Of a stretch of 21,038 nucleotides of DNA, positions 1,217 through 20,675 are shown one piece after another. The position numbers and the translations under genes were made by a program. Source of the DNA: a virus. How positions within the stretch are numbered: position 1 is the first letter of the stretch; each line of letters starts with the position of its first letter. The stretch is taken from IMG/VR virus record IMGVR_UViG_3300049893_001388, positions 1-21,038 of that record. One strand, written 5' to 3'. The notes under the pieces are model-generated. The model ran no database searches. It had not been told where the DNA came from and saw only the letters and a list, made by a program, of their open reading frames with translations.

Positions 1217-1348
1217 GTTCCCTTGGGACACGGGCAACGGTGCAGTTTTCTGAAGGTTGCCCCTTCAATTCCCAAAGACAAGTAAGATAGGGGTGTCCCG
1301 GCGGGTTGCAGCCCCCGAGACGTGACCAACTCACTGGAGGGTGAGCCG

Positions 1349-1978
1349 ATGGGAGTCATCGTAGACCGGACCGGCCAGCGTTTCGGCAGGCTGGTCGTGC
1401 TAAGCAGAGGCGAGAACCAAATCACCGCAGGCGGCGGCATCAAAACCAGTTGGTTCTGCCGTTGTGACTGCGGCAACGAACTGGTTGTCAGAGGCAACTC
1501 CTTGGCAACTGGCAACACTAAAAGCTGCGGATGCTACAACCGCCAAAGGTCCGCTGATCGGCAGTTTATTCACGGCATGAAGGGCAGCCCAGAACACAAA
1601 ATCTGGATGGCTATGCGGAAACGATGCCGCGACACGGGTGACATGCTTTACGGAGGCAGAGGGATCACTGTCGCTCCTGAGTGGGAAGATTTCAGGGTGT
1701 TTTATGCCGACATGGGGCCGCGTCCGTCTTCCCGGCACAGCATTGACAGGATCAACGGAGACCTTGGCTACGGACCCAACAACTGCCGATGGGCCACGCC
1801 ACAGATGCAATGCCGAAACACTCGCAGCAACGTAATCGTCTTGCATCAAGACCGTTACATGACGCTGGCAGAGGCTGCCGAAGTTAGCGGCTTGTCATAC
1901 ACGACGCTGCGAGCAAGGAAGCGGCTCGGATGGCCTGATGACAGACTGTTTCAGCCCATCAGGCCAATGCGTCAGTAG
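1349..1978 (+). CDS. HNH endonuclease with N-terminal zinc ribbon-like motif and C-terminal helix-turn-helix (putative homing endonuclease)
   Basis: The 209-residue product starts at the ATG preceded by GGAGGGTGAGCCG. A GTG further up (1322) is less likely. It shares the opening VDRxGQRxGRLVVL with the second HNH gene at the right end. Cysteines at 37, 39, 41, 60 and 62 form a CxCxCG...SCGC pattern typical of phage HNH proteins of this type. The nuclease core is H130-SIDRIN with NCRWAT at 145-150. Residues 171-195 (MTLAEAAEVSGLSYTTLRAR) form a helix-turn-helix of the kind found at the end of homing endonucleases. The gene reads against the tail module, overlaps the endolysin gene tail-to-tail by 7 nt, and has no copy of the start-associated motif. 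This fits a freestanding, self-spreading endonuclease gene. Confidence 0.9.
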   Translation: MGVIVDRTGQRFGRLVVLSRGENQITAGGGIKTSWFCRCDCGNELVVRGNSLATGNTKSCGCYNRQRSADRQFIHGMKGSPEHKIWMAMRKRCRDTGDMLYGGRGITVAPEWEDFRVFYADMGPRPSSRHSIDRINGDLGYGPNNCRWATPQMQCRNTRSNVIVLHQDRYMTLAEAAEVSGLSYTTLRARKRLGWPDDRLFQPIRPMRQ

Positions 1979-3123
1979 TCCCAGCGCACCCGTGGACCGC
2001 CCTTGCGCTTCCCAATGTGGATGAAGCCCTTGGGTGCCCCGTAGCCGAGGCTGTAGGGCCATGCACGGTCCGCCCAGTCCTGCAGCTCCTTCACGGGCAC
2101 GCCTTCTAGGTAAAAGTCCACCGCTCCCACGCCGGGGGCGTCGTACAGGTGCTCTGATTGGCTGGCACCACCAACCGACTTGTTCACGGCTGGGGGCCTG
2201 TAACCACTGGTGATAATCGCCGGTTTTCCCCCAAAGGCTGCCCGCGCCTTTTCGATGAACTGGCACAGCTCTAAGGCCGTGTCGCACTGGTGCTGCGCTG
2301 TGAAGCGGCGGGCTTCTTCCCCTAAAGCCAGTTCTCCGTAGGTGACGTGAGGCGTGATTTTTGACGAGAACGGCGAGGCAGGGGTGAACTTCGGCGTCGT
2401 GGTTTTGGCTGCCGGCTGCTGGGCCGGCAGCCTCAGCTGTGGCAGCGTGCGGCCAGCAAGGCCAGCACGGGCAGCCTTGAGCGCAGACTGCACCTTGGCC
2501 ACCTTGGCCGTGGCCTTGTTGCCGGCGCTGTCACCGTCGTAGACACCCCGCCCCTCAGCCGTGGGGATGCTGGCCCATTCCTTGGCCAGATCAAGCTGCG
2601 CGGCCTCAATGGTGACGTTCTTGCCTTGGAGGTAGTCCCGCAGTGCCGGCCGCTTGCCGCCCAGCAGCAGGGCCACGGCCAGCCAATCCTGCGTTTCCGG
2701 GCTGAACAGGTCAGACGCTCGGAACCCGGCTGCGGCTACAGCCATCCGCAAGGTTTCGGGGATGAACTGGTAACGGCCGACAGCGAACAGGGTCCGGTCG
2801 CTCTGCAGCTTCTGCACCGCCCCAATGGTGAGCCGATCCAGGCCAGGCCAGCCTGCAGGCGTGTCACCGGCTTTGCCACGGTTGACGCTGGTGTAGTCGC
2901 CCTCTCCTGCGGCAATCAGATCCAGCAGGGGCTTTACCGCAGCGAAGGGATTGGGGGCGGGCTCTGCTGGGCTTCCTTGCGCCCGCCATGCGTCGGTGAA
3001 CAGTTCCCGCTGTTCATCCGTCAATGCCTGATCTAATGCCGACAGAGCGGCCAGCTGGTGGGGCGTGAGCTTGCCTTTCTTGGCAGCTTCTTCGGCTGCC
3101 CCGCGCACGGTTGCGAACGTCAT
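1972..3123 (-). CDS. Two-domain endolysin: lysozyme-like domain plus M15-type peptidase
   Basis: The 383-residue protein should cut cell-wall peptidoglycan at lysis. After an N-terminal helical stretch (1-60), residues 63-200 look like a phage lysozyme-like domain: GEGDY with candidate catalytic Glu74, then AVGRYQFIPETL at 114-125, a signature of this fold. A Pro/Ala/Thr linker (about 225-255) leads to a peptidase of the M15 (D-Ala-D-Ala carboxypeptidase-like) type. There SGYRPP (306-311), SEHL (H325), GAVDF (D336) and FIHI (H369) supply the expected zinc ligands. The start overlaps the preceding gene's stop as TGATG. Two enzymes in one protein would cut both glycan and peptide. The assignment of the two domains is by motif, not search. 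Confidence 0.88.
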   Translation of the reverse strand: MTFATVRGAAEEAAKKGKLTPHQLAALSALDQALTDEQRELFTDAWRAQGSPAEPAPNPFAAVKPLLDLIAAGEGDYTSVNRGKAGDTPAGWPGLDRLTIGAVQKLQSDRTLFAVGRYQFIPETLRMAVAAAGFRASDLFSPETQDWLAVALLLGGKRPALRDYLQGKNVTIEAAQLDLAKEWASIPTAEGRGVYDGDSAGNKATAKVAKVQSALKAARAGLAGRTLPQLRLPAQQPAAKTTTPKFTPASPFSSKITPHVTYGELALGEEARRFTAQHQCDTALELCQFIEKARAAFGGKPAIITSGYRPPAVNKSVGGASQSEHLYDAPGVGAVDFYLEGVPVKELQDWADRAWPYSLGYGAPKGFIHIGKRKGGPRVRWDY

Positions 3124-5422: not shown

Positions 5423-6238
5423 CTAGCCCTCCGCTATCTCAGCCATCAGGTTGATGGTGTGGTTGGTTGCGAGCGATCCAAAGAAGCCCGCCAGCATCAA
5501 GGCCGAGGTGTCGAATACCCGGGGTAGTCCGGTGAGTTCAGGCCCGAAGATCGTGGGCGTTTTCGCCTCCACCCGAGCGCCCCAGATGCGCCGCAAGAAC
5601 ATGGGCGTCACCTGGCCGCCGGGGTTGCCGCCCGCGCTGACCGTATAGCCGTCCATCAACCGGGCGCCATAGTCCCCGGCGTTCCAGGGCACCCGGAGCA
5701 GCTGGCCTGCGTTGCTGTTCGGCACGGTTACAGCGGCGCTGGTTTCCGCGGCGTTGTTGTCCTGGTCCCGGTAGTTGATCGTCACGCTGCCGGTGGCGAC
5801 CGTGGCGCTGTTCTGCCAGACCCACATCTCGACCTCCTCCCAGGCCGGCGTGACACCATCCGAGCGCAATGGCAGGCGGCCGGAGAAGTCCGGTTGCGAG
5901 CCAAGCGTTACCGGCGTTGAGCTTGCATTGGGAATCGCTGTAGCGCCAGCCCAGAACAGCACATCGAACAGCACCAGTGACACGGGCAGGTCTGACATTG
6001 CCTCGACCCGCGAGAGGTAGCCCCTGTTCGAGCCCTGAAAGGCGTCGATCGCAGGGAACCCCGTGGTGGCATCCGTTGGTACAACTCCGGTGGTGGTGTT
6101 GCCAGGCGGTGCCCCCGCGGCAGGGAACCCCGCGATGGCGAGGCTTGTAGAGAGCGTGCCGGGCGGGCTGACCACCTTGCTGAACTGGATCGGATGCTTC
6201 CGTGCTCCGATCAGTTTCTCGAAGCTGGTGATCGCCAC
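5423..6238 (-). CDS. Phage structural protein, second of two tandem paralogues
   Basis: The 271-residue product starts at a GTG (MAITSFEKLIGARKH), 3 nt after its paralogue. The two proteins share the N-terminus, a PxNTTTGVVPTDxTTGFP segment (about 45-62), a nearly identical block around residues 119-142, and YRDQDNNAAE plus RVPWNAGDYGA further on. They also end alike (EIAEG). The composition is beta-rich with few charges, as in virion proteins. No enzyme motif is seen. They follow a small tail-type protein and precede the repeat fibre, so an exposed tail, baseplate or decoration role is likely. The exact role is unknown. Confidence 0.75.
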   Translation of the reverse strand: MAITSFEKLIGARKHPIQFSKVVSPPGTLSTSLAIAGFPAAGAPPGNTTTGVVPTDATTGFPAIDAFQGSNRGYLSRVEAMSDLPVSLVLFDVLFWAGATAIPNASSTPVTLGSQPDFSGRLPLRSDGVTPAWEEVEMWVWQNSATVATGSVTINYRDQDNNAAETSAAVTVPNSNAGQLLRVPWNAGDYGARLMDGYTVSAGGNPGGQVTPMFLRRIWGARVEAKTPTIFGPELTGLPRVFDTSALMLAGFFGSLATNHTINLMAEIAEG

Positions 6239-6241
6239 GGC

Positions 6242-7066
6242 TCAGCCCTCCGCAATCTCGATCACAAGGCTGGGAGTGGACGTGGACGTTGATTCAGGCA
6301 GGCACATCAGCATCAGCGCCGAGCTGTCGAACACCTGGGCCAGGCCGGTCATGTCCGGCCCCCAGGTCTTGTAGGTGTTGGCCTCTACCCTTCCGGCCCA
6401 CAGCCGCCGCAGGAACATAGCCGTCACGGCGCCCGTTGCAGAGGCCACGCCGTTGACCAGATACCCATTCATCAGCTGGGCGCCATAATCGCCCGCGTTC
6501 CAGGGTACCCGCAGAACCCTGTTGACGGCCACGCCGTTGGTAGAAACAGTGGCGCTACTTTCGGCCGCATTGTTATCCTGGTCCCGATAGCTCATCTGGA
6601 AGCTGTGGGCCTGGGCGCCGCCGGCCGTGGACAGCCAGACCCACATCTCGACTTCCTCCCAGGCCGGAGTGACGCCATCGCTGCGCAGCGGCAGGCGACC
6701 CGAGAAGCTGGGCTGCGAGCCGAGGGTGATCGTGGTGGTGCCGGCCGTTGGGATGGTGGTCGGACCAGCCCAGAACAGCAGGTCGAACAGGGCCAGGGTC
6801 TGGTTGACCGGCGAGAACGCCTCCACCCGCGACAGGTAGCCCTTGTTGCTGCCCTGGAACGACTGGATCACCGGAAAGCCCGTTGTCAGGTCCGTGGGAA
6901 CAACGCCCGTGGTGGTATTGGCCGGCGCCGCCCCGGCGCCGGGGAATCCTGCCGCGGCAAACGTCGTGGCCCAGTTGCCGGCCGTGGTGGTCACGGCCGC
7001 CGTTTTGGCGATCTGGACGTGCTGTTTGCTCGCCCCGATCAGCTGCTCAAAGCTGGTGATCGCCAT
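6242..7066 (-). CDS. Phage structural protein, first of two tandem paralogues
   Basis: The 274-residue protein starts at ATG 7066, 4 nt after the stop of the preceding gene. It matches its neighbour over the full length. The longest shared block surrounds SGRLPLRSDGVTPAWEEVEM. The two differ most near residues 20-40, 150-175 and at the C-terminal end, where this copy has a Ser/Thr-rich stretch. This looks like a gene duplication followed by divergence. The likely place is the virion surface or tail tip. No homologous family can be named from sequence alone. Confidence 0.75.
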   Translation of the reverse strand: MAITSFEQLIGASKQHVQIAKTAAVTTTAGNWATTFAAAGFPGAGAAPANTTTGVVPTDLTTGFPVIQSFQGSNKGYLSRVEAFSPVNQTLALFDLLFWAGPTTIPTAGTTTITLGSQPSFSGRLPLRSDGVTPAWEEVEMWVWLSTAGGAQAHSFQMSYRDQDNNAAESSATVSTNGVAVNRVLRVPWNAGDYGAQLMNGYLVNGVASATGAVTAMFLRRLWAGRVEANTYKTWGPDMTGLAQVFDSSALMLMCLPESTSTSTPSLVIEIAEG

Positions 7067-8236: not shown

Positions 8237-8887
8237 TCAGCTTGCCATCAACAGCAGGTCTCCCTCCAGCCAGGCCGCCGCGTAGCGGTTTGGCAGGGTC
8301 AGGTCGTAGGTCAGCAGCGGCCGGTCCATGTCCCGCAGCCTGACGGGGCCATGGCACGGCTTGCCCACGCACACCAGGCCACCGCGGACGTTCCTGCCCT
8401 CTAGCTTCGGCGCCAGCACCCACACCACGCCATCGTCCGAACGCAGGCACCGCAGTTTGGGCGGCTGCACGTCCGGCTTCAGCGCCTTCAGTACCTCCGG
8501 CCAGGCCGCCAGCAGGATTGGGGGAGCCTGCCCCTCCCGCTGCAGGCTCAGGGCCACGGCAGCCACCTGAGGCGACAGACCCTCGCTGCTGCTGGCCTTC
8601 TGCTCACGCTGGAACAGGGCCACGTCGGCAGGCATGAACGGCTCCCGCCGCTTCTTCTCGTCCCTGTTGAGGTTCAGGGTCGTGGAATGGAGGTAGGCAA
8701 TCGGCAGTTCTGCCATCGCCGCCGCGTCAACCTTCATCCGCTGTAGGTGCCCCCACGCACGGATCACCACCGCCCGCAGTTCATCGCCAAACGACTGCCG
8801 ATGAAACTGCCCCGGGAAGGCTGCGATCAGGCCCCAGAAAATTTCTTCCCAGTCCCACGTTTCGGGCTGCCACCGCCCGCTGGCGGC
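8237..8887 (-). CDS. T-like extension of the tail assembly chaperone, read by -1 frameshift
   Basis: This frame is open from the slippery site at 8887 to a TGA at 8237, giving 216 codons. It has no ATG, GTG or TTG before 8770, although the part upstream of 8770 reads like real protein (PETWDWEEIFWGLIAAF then HRQSFGDELRAVVIRAW). It is therefore probably made as the C-terminal part of a fusion: 174 residues of the upstream gene plus 216, for 390 in all. It contains aromatic- and basic-rich helices (NRDEKKRREPF) and a C-terminal LLLMAS. In phages such as lambda the shifted product links tape measure and tail tube during assembly. A separate start at GTG 8770 is possible but lacks a good ribosome site. 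Confidence 0.75.
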   Translation of the reverse strand, partial: AASGRWQPETWDWEEIFWGLIAAFPGQFHRQSFGDELRAVVIRAWGHLQRMKVDAAAMAELPIAYLHSTTLNLNRDEKKRREPFMPADVALFQREQKASSSEGLSPQVAAVALSLQREGQAPPILLAAWPEVLKALKPDVQPPKLRCLRSDDGVVWVLAPKLEGRNVRGGLVCVGKPCHGPVRLRDMDRPLLTYDLTLPNRYAAAWLEGDLLLMAS

Positions 8888-9408
8888 TTTCCCAGCTCCT
8901 CCTCCGTCCGCTGACGGGTGGGCAGGCTTTCCGCCGCCTGTTCCTCCTCGGCCAACAGGTACAGGTCGCTGAACAGCTTCCTGTGTAGACCCTGCGTATC
9001 TGCCACGCCCCAGTCCGGCAGGTTCAGCCGGTGCCGAATCAGGGCCGTCACGGTGGCCTGTTGTGTCCGCTGGCCTGCCGCCCGGAACACTTTGCCCACC
9101 TCCTCAATCCGCGCCGCATGGCGCAGCTTCATCGCCTTGGCGTCAGGCTCTAGCTCCCGGCCGCTAACTGCCGCCTCCACCAGCTCAAACGCCTCGGTGA
9201 GCGTGATGCCCTCAGCTTTGGCAATCGCATCAGCTGCCTGCGCACCACGGACAAAAGCGTTCTGATCCTGTGCCAGCAGATCCTGGATCGTGGCGCTCTC
9301 AGCCACCGTCAGACCACCCAACACGGGCACACTCAGCGTCCCGCTGGCCTCATTGCCCACCACTCGATGCTCAGTCTTGGCTGGTGCCTGCAGGAATGGC
9401 AGCGTCAT
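8827..9408 (-). CDS. Probable tail assembly chaperone (lambda G-like)
   Basis: The unshifted product is 193 residues from an ATG at 9408 that overlaps the previous stop (ATGA). It begins MTLPFLQAPAKTEHRVVGNE, then a small domain with PVLGGLTVAESATIQDLLA, followed by mainly helical sequence, and ends in a flexible Gly/Pro/Lys tail (GGGSPKRGTGKKFSGA). Codons 173-174 (GGA AAG) form the in-frame heptamer GGGAAAG, the lambda G/GT slippery sequence, and the -1 frame stays open for 216 codons. That arrangement, with a shared N-terminus and an extended C-terminus, is the hallmark of siphophage tail chaperones. The function is inferred from it rather than from sequence similarity. The usual location just before the tape measure gene is not kept. 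Confidence 0.7.
   Translation of the reverse strand: MTLPFLQAPAKTEHRVVGNEASGTLSVPVLGGLTVAESATIQDLLAQDQNAFVRGAQAADAIAKAEGITLTEAFELVEAAVSGRELEPDAKAMKLRHAARIEEVGKVFRAAGQRTQQATVTALIRHRLNLPDWGVADTQGLHRKLFSDLYLLAEEEQAAESLPTRQRTEEELGKPPAGGGSPKRGTGKKFSGA
8863..8893 (-). promoter_or_regulatory. Programmed -1 ribosomal frameshift site with downstream stem-loop
   Basis: On the minus strand GGGAAAG occupies 8893-8887, read in frame as G GGA AAG. A 7-nt spacer (CCGCCAG) leads to CGGGC, a 7-nt loop and GCCCG (8879-8863), a perfect 5-bp stem. After slippage the frame reads GGG AAA GCC GCC. Slippery heptamer, spacer length and stem match the standard bacterial -1 frameshift design. Confidence 0.78.
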
Positions 9409-16130: not shown

Positions 16131-18389
16131 TCAGGGGAGCGCGGCGGCCTGGTTGATGAAGGTTTGCCCGGTGTCAGCGTTGACAGTGACCGTGATGGTG
16201 CGGCTTGCGTTGGCGTTTTCGTTTAGCGCGGCCACCAGGTTGGGGATGGCGCTATCAGCGAGGTTGCCAATGCTCTTGGTGACGAGTGCCCCGGTGCTGG
16301 CAAAGTCCTGAGCCAGCTGTGCCTGCGCGTCGGCCACAGAGCGCTGGGTCACGTTGAAGGATCCCACCGCGTCAGCAATGGCCGCAGCTTGCTGGCCAAA
16401 GGCAATGAACGCCTGGGCATTGGTCTGGCTGGGGATCAGCGTGGGGTCCACCAGCCCGGTCTGCACGCCACGGGTGATGTTGGCCTGAGCCTGCTCCAGG
16501 ACGCGCTGTTTGCCGATCTGGGTAAGGATGGCAAAGTTGCTGCTGAGCGTGTCGTTGAGGCGGCGCGTGGCCTCGTTGAGCTGATCCTTGAGGGCACGGC
16601 CGCCGTTGACCAGGGCCAGCTCCAGCTCACCACCGGCTGCGCTGAGCTGGGCAATGGTGCTGCGGATGTTCTCGGTGCTGTCGCCCTTGGCCGCTTGGTT
16701 CTGCAGCTGCAGGAACAGCTCAGCCTGCTTTTGCCGCGCCTGGTTGATTGACTCCAGCACGGACTGCGCGGCAGCCACCTGCGCCCGTTGCGCCTGATCT
16801 TCGATCCCGGCTAGTTGCTTGGCCTTGGCAATGCGATCATCCAGCGCCTGCGCCTGCAGCCTGAACTGAGCCACAAACGACGTGGTGTCGGCAGCGGCAT
16901 CGCTCAGGAGCTTGGAGCCCTCCGCCAGGTTGATTTTTACCGTATCACTCGCCGCCGCGAGGCGCAGTGCAGCTTCCTTTGCTGCGGTGTTCTTGTCTTG
17001 GCTAGTCCCACCAGCAGCGTCAGCGGCTGCCCTTGCCTTTGCGTATTCACCTTGCAGGCGCTTCTCTTCTGTGATTGATTTCTGAATCTTGAACTGACTT
17101 TCAGCCAGCTTCAGATCAGTGCCGCTCAGATTGATGGTCTGCTGGAGCAGATCAAGACGCTCCTTGGTTTCCTGCGATGCCTTGACTACCGTTGCAGACG
17201 GCGTAGGGCTTGGCTTTGGCAACTGTGGCGGGGCCCCGCCACCTCCGGCGCCTTGAGACAGATCCTTAATCAGGTCGGCCAGGATCGCTTTTGTGATCTC
17301 GTTTTTGACGCCTGTTGCCGTGCCCGAGTAGGTCTTGCCGTTGTACTGAACAGACACCCCGCCAAAGAAGCCTGAGCCGCCAAAAGGCCCAATCTTTGCT
17401 TGGACAAGATCGCCGGCCTGCTTGTCGGCCCGCGCCGCGAGCTGCGGGTACTGATTAGCCAGGTTGGCCTGCCTGATGGCGCCTGCCAGCTCCTTAAAGG
17501 CGCGAGTCAGGCCGCCAACCACCGCCAACGCAGCGGGGCCAAAGGCTGTGGACAGCTCCTTTTGAAAGTTTTGGGATTCAATGCTGAGTGCCTTGAGCTT
17601 CTCCTGGCTTGTGTTGAGGCTTTTGCTCAGCGATCCGAGTTCGTCGGATTTGAGCCGCTCTAGGGCTTTGATGATGATGTCGGTGCTGATCTTGCCTTCG
17701 CTGCCCAGCTGCTTTAGGGCGCCAACAGGGACGTTGAGTTCCTTGGCAATGGCTTGAGACAGCGGCGGCAGCTGCTCCAGAACAGAGCGCAGCTCATCGC
17801 CTTGCAGGCGACCAGACGACAGGCCCTGTGTCAACTGGATCAGGGCATTGTTGACGCTCTCTGCGCTGAGCCCTGTGTTTTTAGCAGCAGCAGTGACACC
17901 AACAAAAATAGTCTGGATTTGCTCAAGGCTAACGCCAGTTGGCCGCAGCGATGCGTAAAGCTGTGCAAAGCCGTTGGCGGCTTCGGCTTGACTCAGGTTT
18001 AGTAGCTTGGCTGCCTCGGCCGCTGCAAACTGCGCTTGGGTCGTTTCACCGAATCTGCCAGACAGCGCATTAAGCCGCACGTTTGCGGACTCAGCAGCAA
18101 TCCCAACGTCTGCGATCTGCTTTGCGACCGCAGCCACGCCAAGGGTTGCGAGCCCATTACGGAGCAGTCCAACACTGCCGGCTAGGCCATCAAACGCAGT
18201 TCCGGCGTTTTCAACTTCCGACTGGATCGACGTAACAACACGGCTTTGGCCAAACCCCTGGATTGACAGGGACTTGCTGATTGATTCCCCCCGCTGCTTT
18301 GCAATCCGCTCTGCCCGCTCCAGCCCAGCATTGAACGCATCTAGGTCAACGCCAAGCACTAGCGATGCGCTGCCCAGTCTCTCCTCCAC
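16131..18389 (-). CDS. Tail tape measure protein
   Basis: The 752-residue protein sets tail length and forms the core of the tail. It starts at GTG 18389 (MEERLGSASLVLGVDLDAF). Residues 85-245 contain the tape-measure domain (TIGR02675-like), including the recognisable LQGDELRSVLEQLPPLSQAI and LGSEGKISTDIIIKALE. This is followed by long Ala/Gln-rich helical sequence, hydrophobic patches (about 285-300) and an N/T-rich C-terminus. Using the usual relation of about 0.15 nm per residue, it would specify a tail of about 110 nm. It heads a four-gene unit with the start-associated motif 19 nt upstream, and it is divergent from the plus-strand neck-type pair. Confidence 0.93.
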   Translation of the reverse strand: MEERLGSASLVLGVDLDAFNAGLERAERIAKQRGESISKSLSIQGFGQSRVVTSIQSEVENAGTAFDGLAGSVGLLRNGLATLGVAAVAKQIADVGIAAESANVRLNALSGRFGETTQAQFAAAEAAKLLNLSQAEAANGFAQLYASLRPTGVSLEQIQTIFVGVTAAAKNTGLSAESVNNALIQLTQGLSSGRLQGDELRSVLEQLPPLSQAIAKELNVPVGALKQLGSEGKISTDIIIKALERLKSDELGSLSKSLNTSQEKLKALSIESQNFQKELSTAFGPAALAVVGGLTRAFKELAGAIRQANLANQYPQLAARADKQAGDLVQAKIGPFGGSGFFGGVSVQYNGKTYSGTATGVKNEITKAILADLIKDLSQGAGGGGAPPQLPKPSPTPSATVVKASQETKERLDLLQQTINLSGTDLKLAESQFKIQKSITEEKRLQGEYAKARAAADAAGGTSQDKNTAAKEAALRLAAASDTVKINLAEGSKLLSDAAADTTSFVAQFRLQAQALDDRIAKAKQLAGIEDQAQRAQVAAAQSVLESINQARQKQAELFLQLQNQAAKGDSTENIRSTIAQLSAAGGELELALVNGGRALKDQLNEATRRLNDTLSSNFAILTQIGKQRVLEQAQANITRGVQTGLVDPTLIPSQTNAQAFIAFGQQAAAIADAVGSFNVTQRSVADAQAQLAQDFASTGALVTKSIGNLADSAIPNLVAALNENANASRTITVTVNADTGQTFINQAAALP

Positions 18390-18430: not shown

Positions 18431-18835
18431 ATGAGCAGCGCCCTCGCCTTCCTGGCCAATGCCACGGCCACCTTTGACGTGCCCACCGCTGGGACCGTCA
18501 CCGACCCGACCACAGGCAACGTGGTGCCCAATACGGAATCAGTCACGGTGACGCTGTACTTGCGTGGCACGGGTGGCGCTGCACCGTCGCTGGCTGAGTT
18601 CCCCGGTGTAGGTGTTGAGGATGACGTGCTGGAAGGCTACGCCGTGAGCCCCCAGGCCCTCGATGCGCGGATCGTGCCCGGTGTGCGGGGATCCCTGGCC
18701 TTCGGCAGTGATGACCCGGTGCCCTGTGAGGTGGCAGCAGCCCGCTACCCGTTTGGCAGCACCGGGTTTCTCGGGGAGACGCAGCAGGGCATCCTGGGCG
18801 ACAAAATCCGCATCAGCAGGTACAGCCAGCGATGA
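18431..18835 (+). CDS. Neck or head-tail connector-like protein
   Basis: The 134-residue protein begins MSSALAFLANATATFDVPTA and contains VTVTLYLRGTGGA, GVEDDVLEGYAVSPQALDAR and GDKIRISRYSQR. This is the beta-barrel style typical of small head-closure or head-tail joining proteins, with an ending in which a beta strand follows a short helix. The role is inferred from this style and from the next gene, which looks like a tail-completion protein and overlaps it by ATGA. Both are on the plus strand, against all neighbouring tail genes. Confidence 0.55.
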   Translation: MSSALAFLANATATFDVPTAGTVTDPTTGNVVPNTESVTVTLYLRGTGGAAPSLAEFPGVGVEDDVLEGYAVSPQALDARIVPGVRGSLAFGSDDPVPCEVAAARYPFGSTGFLGETQQGILGDKIRISRYSQR

Positions 18836-19257
18836 CGACCGTTCGCGCCAGCTATCGCCTACAGGGGTGGAACGCTACTCAGCTGAAGCTGCGTGTGCCT
18901 GCCATCCTTACGGCCTACGGCAAAGCAGTCGGAGACGAGTTCCAGCAGCAAATCAAGCTGGTGCAATACGACTGGCCCCGCCGCACCTACCGGAAGAACG
19001 GCACCATCGAAGGCAGCCCGCGCGACATCGTGGACCTCGGCGGCTTCCTGCGCTCCCAACGCCGGGACAGGGTGGACGCTACGACCCTGCGCTTCAGCTG
19101 GAACGTGCCCTATGCCTCGCTGATCTTCAACGGATACACCACCAGCAAAGGCAACGTCTGCCCGCCGAGGAACTGGATCAAGCCGGCCCTAGAAGCGCAG
19201 CCCCTAGACCGCTTCTTTGTTGATCAGTGGAAGGCTCTGGCCAGGCGGTCGCTCTGA
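18832..19257 (+). CDS. Tail-completion or neck protein-like (HK97 gp10 type pattern)
   Basis: The 141-residue product starts at an ATG that overlaps the upstream stop (ATGA). It contains a long basic amphipathic helix (LKLRVPAILTAYGKAVGDEF), then WPRRTYRKNG, GSPRDIVDLGGFLRSQR and a C-terminal segment with NWIKPALEAQPLDRFF. A helix that reaches YDWP, followed by a region where residues form NVPYASLIFNGY, is the usual layout of HK97 gp10-type tail-completion proteins. The pair probably forms part of the head-tail junction. No start-associated motif lies at the usual spacing, so it may be expressed from the divergent gap or elsewhere. Confidence 0.62.
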   Translation: MTTVRASYRLQGWNATQLKLRVPAILTAYGKAVGDEFQQQIKLVQYDWPRRTYRKNGTIEGSPRDIVDLGGFLRSQRRDRVDATTLRFSWNVPYASLIFNGYTTSKGNVCPPRNWIKPALEAQPLDRFFVDQWKALARRSL

Positions 19258-19315: not shown

Positions 19316-20068
19316 TCAGCTCACAGTTGCAACGGTGAACACAGGCGGTGTGCCCGCGCCGCCCACATCTCCAATCGCAACGGTGAGGGTATCGCCCACC
19401 TTGAAGTTGGTCCCGCCCGCCGCGATCGTCGGCGCAGAGGTCACAGTGCCACCGCCAGCCACGACGATGTTGGCCGTCGCGCCCTTGCCCGAGCCCACGC
19501 CAGAGGCAGGGTTGACAGGCACCAGGGCCTTGCCGCTGTAGGTGGCGGCGGTCATGCCGCTGCCGGCAGTGGTGATGCTCAGGGTGGCGATGGGGTTGCC
19601 CTGCGGGTACCAGAGCAGTTGGCCGTACCCTCTCAGCGTGAAGCTAATAGTGGCAACATCACCGGCCTGGATGCTCTCTTGGAAGCCCTCAACAAAGGCA
19701 ATGCCGCTGTGAATTTCGGCGTCATCACCGCTGCCATCCTTGACGGGGGACACGCGGTAGAACTTGAGGGCGGTGCCGGCAGCACCGTTGAGCCATGCCT
19801 GCTTCAACAGCCGGTAACCCGCATCCCCCAAAGACATGTTCATGGCAGCGGGGATAGACCATCCCACGTTGGTCATGAGGGGATTCTTCCAGCCATACTC
19901 CGAGGAATAGTCAATCGGAGCATCAGTGGAGTCCGTGCTTCCGTCGATGCTGGCATTAGTCAGCGACAGAATCTCGGTCAGCCCAGCGGTAGATGTTGGG
20001 GGCGTCGATGCGGTGGTTCCCAGCCCAACGTAGAGCTGAAAATCTAGCGCGTTGAAATAAGAAGGCAT
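19316..20068 (-). CDS. Tail tube protein with a Gly/Thr-rich C-terminal extension
   Basis: The 250-residue product begins MPSYFNALDFQLYVGLGTTA. Its first 165 residues fit a siphophage tail tube: a beta domain with EILSLTNASIDGSTDSTDAP, a central GWSIPAAMNMSLGDAGYRLL, then AIHSGIAFVEGFQES-like strands and TISFTLRGYGQL. Residues 180-250 add a domain with GSGKGATANIVVAGGGTVTS and GGTNFKVGDTLTVAIGD, an element seen fused to many phage virion proteins. The gene has its own motif 20 nt before the ATG and its own terminator, so it is probably transcribed alone, as suits a highly copied protein. Its neighbours are an HNH endonuclease upstream and, past the terminator, plus-strand neck-type genes. Confidence 0.78.
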   Translation of the reverse strand: MPSYFNALDFQLYVGLGTTASTPPTSTAGLTEILSLTNASIDGSTDSTDAPIDYSSEYGWKNPLMTNVGWSIPAAMNMSLGDAGYRLLKQAWLNGAAGTALKFYRVSPVKDGSGDDAEIHSGIAFVEGFQESIQAGDVATISFTLRGYGQLLWYPQGNPIATLSITTAGSGMTAATYSGKALVPVNPASGVGSGKGATANIVVAGGGTVTSAPTIAAGGTNFKVGDTLTVAIGDVGGAGTPPVFTVATVS

Positions 20069-20086: not shown

Positions 20087-20587
20087 CTAGCTTGCCGGCC
20101 GTTTCCTCCAGCGCCTCGGGTTCCTGTTGTTGTTCTGCTCCTTCATGGTCGCCCACCGGCAGTTCCCCGGCTCGTAGTGCCCGTTGGGATCAATGCGGTC
20201 AATGGTGAGGCCAGGCGGGCAATCCCCCATGTCTTCCACAAAAGCCTCAAAACTGTGCCAACGGTCGCAGACCTTGATGCCTTTGCCGTAGTAATACTCC
20301 GCATAGCTCAGGTTTGGGTTGCTGCACCGCATCCGCATGTTCTGCCAAATGCCGTAGGTGCGGTCTTTCTTGCCGCTCCTGCCATGCGTGCGGACACGCT
20401 TCACCAGCATCTCGGTCCTGATGCAGCCACAGCTCATGCTGCCCTTGCCGAGGTTTCCGCCGTTGATCACCTTCTGCCTGCCGCAGTCGCACTGACAGAG
20501 CCAGTGCCACTTGTCGGTCTTGTGTGCCCTAGCCAAGACGACCAGCCGGCCGTAACGCTGGCCAACGCGGTCTACCATTGCTGTCAT
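20087..20587 (-). CDS. HNH endonuclease (putative homing endonuclease), related to the one at 1349-1978
   Basis: The 166-residue protein starts at the ATG at 20587 (MTAMVDRVGQRYGRLVVLAR), aligned with the start of the other HNH gene. It contains CQCDCG (31-36) and MSCGC (51-55) as a zinc-binding pattern, then a helical region and the HNH core IDRIDPNGHYEPGNCRWAT, with Asp130 and Asn142. Its first H position is Thr, as in many members of this family. It lacks the C-terminal helix-turn-helix of its relative. The 25 nt before the ATG match the leader of the other gene (TGACCAACTCA and TGAGC). It sits between the unit head of the tail tube and a right-end gene, with no start-associated motif of its own, which suits a mobile endonuclease insertion. 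Confidence 0.88.
   Translation of the reverse strand: MTAMVDRVGQRYGRLVVLARAHKTDKWHWLCQCDCGRQKVINGGNLGKGSMSCGCIRTEMLVKRVRTHGRSGKKDRTYGIWQNMRMRCSNPNLSYAEYYYGKGIKVCDRWHSFEAFVEDMGDCPPGLTIDRIDPNGHYEPGNCRWATMKEQNNNRNPRRWRKRPAS
20089..20097 (-). promoter_or_regulatory. Start-associated motif GGCAAGCTA before the tail tube gene
   Basis: The minus strand reads GGCAAGCTA then GGTC, ending 20 nt before the ATG at 20068. It differs from the main form by G at position 6. The TAG in the motif is the stop codon of the HNH endonuclease gene upstream, so the endonuclease gene ends inside this site. Confidence 0.6.
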
Positions 20588-20675
20588 CAGCTCAGTTCCG
20601 TTGAGTTGGTCAAGGGGCAGGGTGTTAGCGCACCGCTGCCTCATTCATTCTACGGCCTTGGCTTTGGGAAGCGGA

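Follow-up and report, generated by a model that had tools for sequence, protein, structure and literature searches.

We have analyzed a frameshifted gene in the tail module of a virus, IMG/VR record IMGVR_UViG_3300049893_001388, positions 1 to 21,038; the window denotes this whole stretch of 21,038 nucleotides. The locus occupies positions 8237-9408 of the minus strand, and is very probably a tail assembly chaperone gene of the lambda G/GT type expressed by programmed −1 ribosomal frameshifting. Comparison of sequences gives a high probability that the frameshift is real, while its efficiency, the products made in vivo and the role as chaperone are deduced.

A slippery heptamer connects two reading frames

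The zero-frame open reading frame (ORF) runs from an ATG at 9408 to 8827 on the minus strand, and would encode a short gpG-like product of 193 amino acids; it is supported by the ORF list and by 47 homologues. Within it lies the slippery heptamer G_GGA_AAG (8887-8893, minus strand), in phase with the zero frame (CTG GGA AAG). This is the only GGGAAAG on the minus strand of the window, and the lambda G/T junction is itself GGGAAAG. From the heptamer the −1 frame extends through 216 codons and a stop (8237-8887, minus strand, with the stop at 8237-8239). Past the junction it reads AASGRWQPETWDWEEIFWGLIAAFPGQF..., and it contains a gpT-like domain with an NRDxKK..PF motif. The first ATG, GTG or TTG of this frame is the GTG at 8770, 123 nt past the start of the heptamer; there is none upstream of it in the open −1 frame. 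Joining the 174 residues encoded up to the junction to the 216 of the extension gives a fusion of 390 residues, whereas the short product continues after K174 into a low-complexity tail rich in K, S and G. The heptamer, its phase, its identity with the lambda site, the open −1 frame lacking a start before 8770 and the length of the fusion had all been proposed in a first-pass annotation of the sequence, and they were borne out with every coordinate correct. In-phase X_XXY_YYZ heptamers (YYY being AAA or TTT) occur in only 4 of the 15 minus-strand genes of the window. Of these four, the ORF at 8827-9408 is the one examined, and its heptamer leads into a long, conserved −1 frame.

In the proposed mechanism the majority of ribosomes would finish the ORF 9408-8827 at its stop, making the 193-residue protein. 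A minority, with the tRNAs for GGA and AAG in the P and A sites, would slip back by one base onto GGG and AAA and read on in the −1 frame, giving a 390-residue protein in which a G part of 174 residues is joined to a T part of 216. If the two parts act as their lambda counterparts do, the G part would serve as a coat for the tape measure protein (16131-18389), with tail tube subunits (19316-20068) brought in by the less abundant T part.

The heptamer is conserved among homologues

With the short protein as query, 47 relatives of 43-95% identity were found among viral contigs. GGGAAAG is present in the correct phase in all 47, with the zero-frame stop at a variable distance of 55 to 112 nt past the heptamer. 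GGA is the rarest glycine codon of the gene, accounting for 17 of 582 glycine codons elsewhere (3%), and is nevertheless used at the slippery site in all 48 sequences of this first set. One query pattern of the search spanned the peptide TEEELGKP, and the test was therefore repeated from the side of the T domain, using only the motifs NxNRDxK and SDDxx[VI]W, which are blind to the heptamer. This second set comprised 80 loci (58 distinct sequences), and in every one an X_XXY_YYZ heptamer stands in phase at the junction, G_GGA_AAG in 48 and A_AAA_AAG in 32. The junction residues differ with the type of heptamer, LGK or LKK, while slipperiness is constant, indicating that it is the nucleotides that are conserved, not the peptide.

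On a tree of 84 T domains, calculated with the junction columns left out, the type of heptamer changes 10 times. At least six of these changes are forced by well-supported branches; each leads to another slippery site, and no loss of the slippery site was found on the tree. Judged by these comparisons, the conservation lifts the observation far above chance. The programmed frameshift of the first-pass annotation has thus come through a test on homologues that was set beforehand.

The relatives include named cyanophages. Homologous G and T parts, of about 30% identity, are found in S-CBS2 (gp015/016), PSS2 (gp064/065), S-CRES1 (gp72/73) and S-CRES3 (gp79/80). The heptamer is A_AAA_AAG in S-CBS2 and S-CRES1, and G_GGA_AAG in S-CRES3 and PSS2; the −1 frame is open in each. 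The GenBank records of these four phages give two separate ORFs, the second started internally, and annotate no frameshift. The text of the PSS2 paper (PMC2784084) makes no mention of one, and we found no described frameshift for these cyanophages in a literature search that left subscription papers mostly outside. A locus in the chromosome of Calothrix sp. PCC 7716 (L076:8998-10298) has TEEELGK encoded on G_GGA_AAA, followed by an open −1 frame. From the cyanophage relatives and this chromosomal locus, the phage of the window is likely to have a cyanobacterial host.

The two products of lambda G/GT (Levin et al., 1993; Xu et al., 2004, cited in PMC5009743) come from a gene that shares with the present unit a −1 extension without a start codon, the heptamer GGGAAAG and a place in a tail gene cluster. 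The T part here is longer (216 amino acids compared with about 140 in lambda), and the G part is not recognisably related. Unlike lambda, the pair is distant from the tape measure gene, and a hairpin is present in many relatives. The site G_GGA_AAG has been reported to be highly shift-prone in E. coli (PMC5009743). A more distant parallel is provided by frameshifted g-t genes of the HCTV type (PMC5009743), which belong to haloarchaeal viruses and so have archaeal hosts.

The −1 frame is coding ahead of its first start codon

About 38 conserved residues (WDWEEIFWGLIAAFPGQF..) precede GTG 8770 in the −1 segment that lacks a start codon. From the zero-frame stop to GTG 8770 the protein is conserved in the relatives, with a predicted helix inside. 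Downstream of the zero-frame stop, as far as the first codon that could start the −1 frame, substitutions in the clade of the window are distributed 10/19/67 over −1 codon positions 1/2/3, and in another clade 217/229/712. In the overlap region the distribution in the clade of the window is 12/0/40. These changes are mostly non-synonymous in the zero frame; the pattern is set by the −1 frame, as the presence of that frame predicts. By this measure the start-less segment evolves as coding sequence under purifying selection. The suggestion of the first-pass annotation that the early part of the −1 frame reads as genuine protein is therefore upheld by its conservation and by the selection acting on it.

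These data bear on whether the locus might instead hold two genes, with translation of the second starting on its own at GTG 8770 or a non-canonical start codon, by coupling or reinitiation. In the relatives the first start codon, GTG (or TTG or ATG), falls about 114-129 nt past the heptamer, and GenBank annotators have placed starts inside the second ORF, as such an arrangement would have it. Initiation at 8770 would, however, leave untranslated the approximately 38 residues that evolve as protein, and the window offers no in-frame start further upstream. Nor does independent initiation explain why the heptamer is conserved, or why it switches from one slippery form to another. We consider it improbable.

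Ribosomal frameshifting also accounts for the data better than fusion by transcriptional slippage. The A6 run of AAAAAAG, present in 32 relatives, could permit the polymerase to slip; yet the window and most relatives have GGGAAAG, in which the longest run is three bases, and what is conserved is the X_XXY_YYZ pattern in the reading phase and not a homopolymer. Slippage of the polymerase is thus a very remote prospect. The two frames joined do read as one continuous protein, as they would if a sequencing error or a recent disabling frameshift had split one ordinary long gene, but this is refuted to near certainty by the homologues, since the 47 and 80 loci, each assembled independently, and the sequenced isolates all show this split, and in every case it falls on a slippery heptamer.

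The hairpin is lineage specific

The first-pass annotation also noted a stem 7 nt after the heptamer. This candidate stimulatory hairpin (8863-8879, minus strand) is present, with CGGGC (8879-8875) facing GCCCG (8867-8863) in a 5-bp stem, a 7-nt loop and a 7-nt spacer; it is not general across the relatives. Taken alone, the stem of the window is unremarkable, being matched by 8.8% of shuffled sequences, and RNAfold gives as its optimum another hairpin, CCGCC/GGCGG, which competes with this stem and lies directly next to the heptamer. Of 37 distinct GGGAAAG sequences, 22 have a strong stem that begins 5-7 nt past the heptamer, compared with 5% of shuffles, and the stem undergoes compensated changes among the GGGAAAG relatives (GCGGCG/CGCCGC, CCGGCG/CGCCGG and GCCGGTC/GACCGGC). 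Only 3 of 20 AAAAAAG relatives have a strong stem. These counts suggest a stimulator required chiefly at the weaker site, GGGAAAG. A trade-off between heptamer strength and hairpin was unsupported once relatedness was allowed for (six independent pairs, median p 1). The independent pairs are too few, and we do not claim one. The hairpin is real, but lineage specific and secondary.

Identity of the proteins and their place in the tail module

Evidence on the nature of the proteins comes largely from relatives. PF06223 (lambda minor tail protein T, gpT) was matched by 20 of 25 T-domain relatives, with a best E value of 6e-6; the scores given for individual relatives range from 18.4 to 25.7 bits, where the curated cut-off is 25.9. 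The frameshift region of PSS2 matches the same family (E 6e-4), and 17 T-domain relatives match phrog_337, a 'tail protein'. The T protein of the window has no PF06223 match itself. Searches of the window proteins against Pfam, PHROG and NCBIfam gave no direct match to G or T apart from phrog_34388, a family of unknown function. A viral fold search matched unnamed entries only, two of which have the lengths of S-CBS2 gp015 and PSS2 gp065, and a DNA-level search of known phages found no match to the window.

The tape measure and tube genes lie transcriptionally upstream of the frameshift unit on the same strand. The tape measure protein, the presumed client, has 752 amino acids (16131-18389, minus strand; PF20155, 4e-32; phrog_3336, 1.3e-32; TIGR02675, 1.4e-19), and the major tail (tube) protein has 250 (19316-20068, minus strand; phrog_38654, 4.5e-10; NF047353, 5.9e-8). 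With the PF06223 matches of the relatives and the lambda-like heptamer, these genes make a G/GT-type tail assembly chaperone the best reading.

A number of results weigh against it. About 7 kb separate the unit from the tape measure gene upstream of it, where the two are adjacent in lambda. The window's own G and T proteins match no Pfam family, and an hhalign comparison of the T family with five lambda-type T sequences was not significant. The G part has no significant family match, the best being that of one member to phrog_313 (E 0.17), and a PDB fold search with a model of G gave no significant match. The hairpin, moreover, is absent from several GGGAAAG lineages and from most AAAAAAG lineages. 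Since the G part bears no recognisable relation to known chaperones in sequence or fold, and the T profile comparison failed, we can only infer the chaperone function. The chaperone fusion of the first-pass annotation therefore finds support in the gpT similarity of the relatives and in the tail-module context, although the gene, unlike its counterpart in lambda, does not stand next to that for the tape measure protein.

Could the frameshift be real and the pair have some other role in virion assembly, as a gene among the later tail genes? Its location some 7 kb downstream of the tape measure gene, similar where seen in relatives, would fit this, as would its position upstream of that gene in S-CBS2, PSS2 and Calothrix (by about 3, 19 and 11 kb), and the G part has no detectable similarity to gpG. 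Set against this, the T domain resembles the PF06223 and phrog_337 tail proteins, the gap between tube and tape measure genes contains no other frameshift pair, and the short and long architecture and the heptamers are as in lambda. Another role is unlikely, though less so than the alternatives to frameshifting considered above; we prefer the tape measure chaperone.

Gene order in the window and relatives

In lambda, N15, phi80, Tritos and HY01 the frameshifted pair stands between the tube and tape measure genes, a placement that is typical of such chaperones although their mechanism does not demand it. In the window this canonical gap has no −1 frameshift pair on the minus strand, and holds instead two genes on the opposite strand, of 134 and 141 amino acids (18431-19257, plus strand). 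They are coupled, with overlapping start and stop, and they run against the tail operon. At least one of them is found in 7/7 mapped relatives, and both in six. The order in the window and the seven mapped relatives is tube, opposite-strand pair, tape measure, five genes and then G/GT, with a divergent gene in place of the tape measure in some relatives. The five intervening genes (p563, p697, p352, p134b and p461) were not all detected in every relative. In S-CBS2 and the S-CRES phages the pair is found upstream of both the tube gene and the tape measure gene, and in PSS2 it is far upstream of the latter. The Calothrix unit is separated by about 11 kb from a tape measure gene that occupies a frame of 2808 codons. 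As the pair stands apart from the tape measure gene, both in the window and in its relatives, the family appears to be uncoupled from its presumed client gene. A milder precedent is provided by some cluster O mycobacteriophages, where an HNH gene parts the chaperone and tape measure genes (PMC4351075).

A broader picture is offered tentatively: a widespread, probably cyanobacterial siphovirus lineage in which G/GT has been uncoupled from the tape measure gene, an opposite-strand pair occupies the vacated slot and two heptamers have been interchanged, the weaker GGGAAAG perhaps compensated by a hairpin mostly lacking in the AAAAAAG phages.

Some further features of the module may be recorded. 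The adjacent minus-strand genes at 5423-6238 and 6242-7066 have the same counterpart in relatives, a single gene (57% and 80-83% identity), which makes a tandem duplication of a tail gene in the window probable. On either side of the tail module is one of two related HNH endonuclease genes (phrog_374; 1322-1978, plus strand, and 20090-20644, minus strand), and the operon ends downstream with an M15-peptidase endolysin (1972-3123, minus strand; PF08291, phrog_28234). The 106.7 kb contig IMGVR_UViG_3300027151_000002 contains two tape measure genes (34959 and 82404; one in an 1811-codon frame) and a single G/GT unit; it might come from one large phage, from two phages or from an assembly in which sequences were joined.

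Significance

Frameshifting to make two tail chaperone products is well known from lambda, but is unannotated in these phages. The analysis corrects the gene models of a large environmental phage group and of S-CBS2, PSS2 and the S-CRES phages, in which the second ORF is truncated and unlinked. It also yields a natural series in which one slippery heptamer has replaced another at least six times independently while the frameshift site itself was retained, and which would allow site strength to be measured against the stimulatory hairpin. Finally, a frameshifted chaperone pair need not adjoin its presumed tape measure client.
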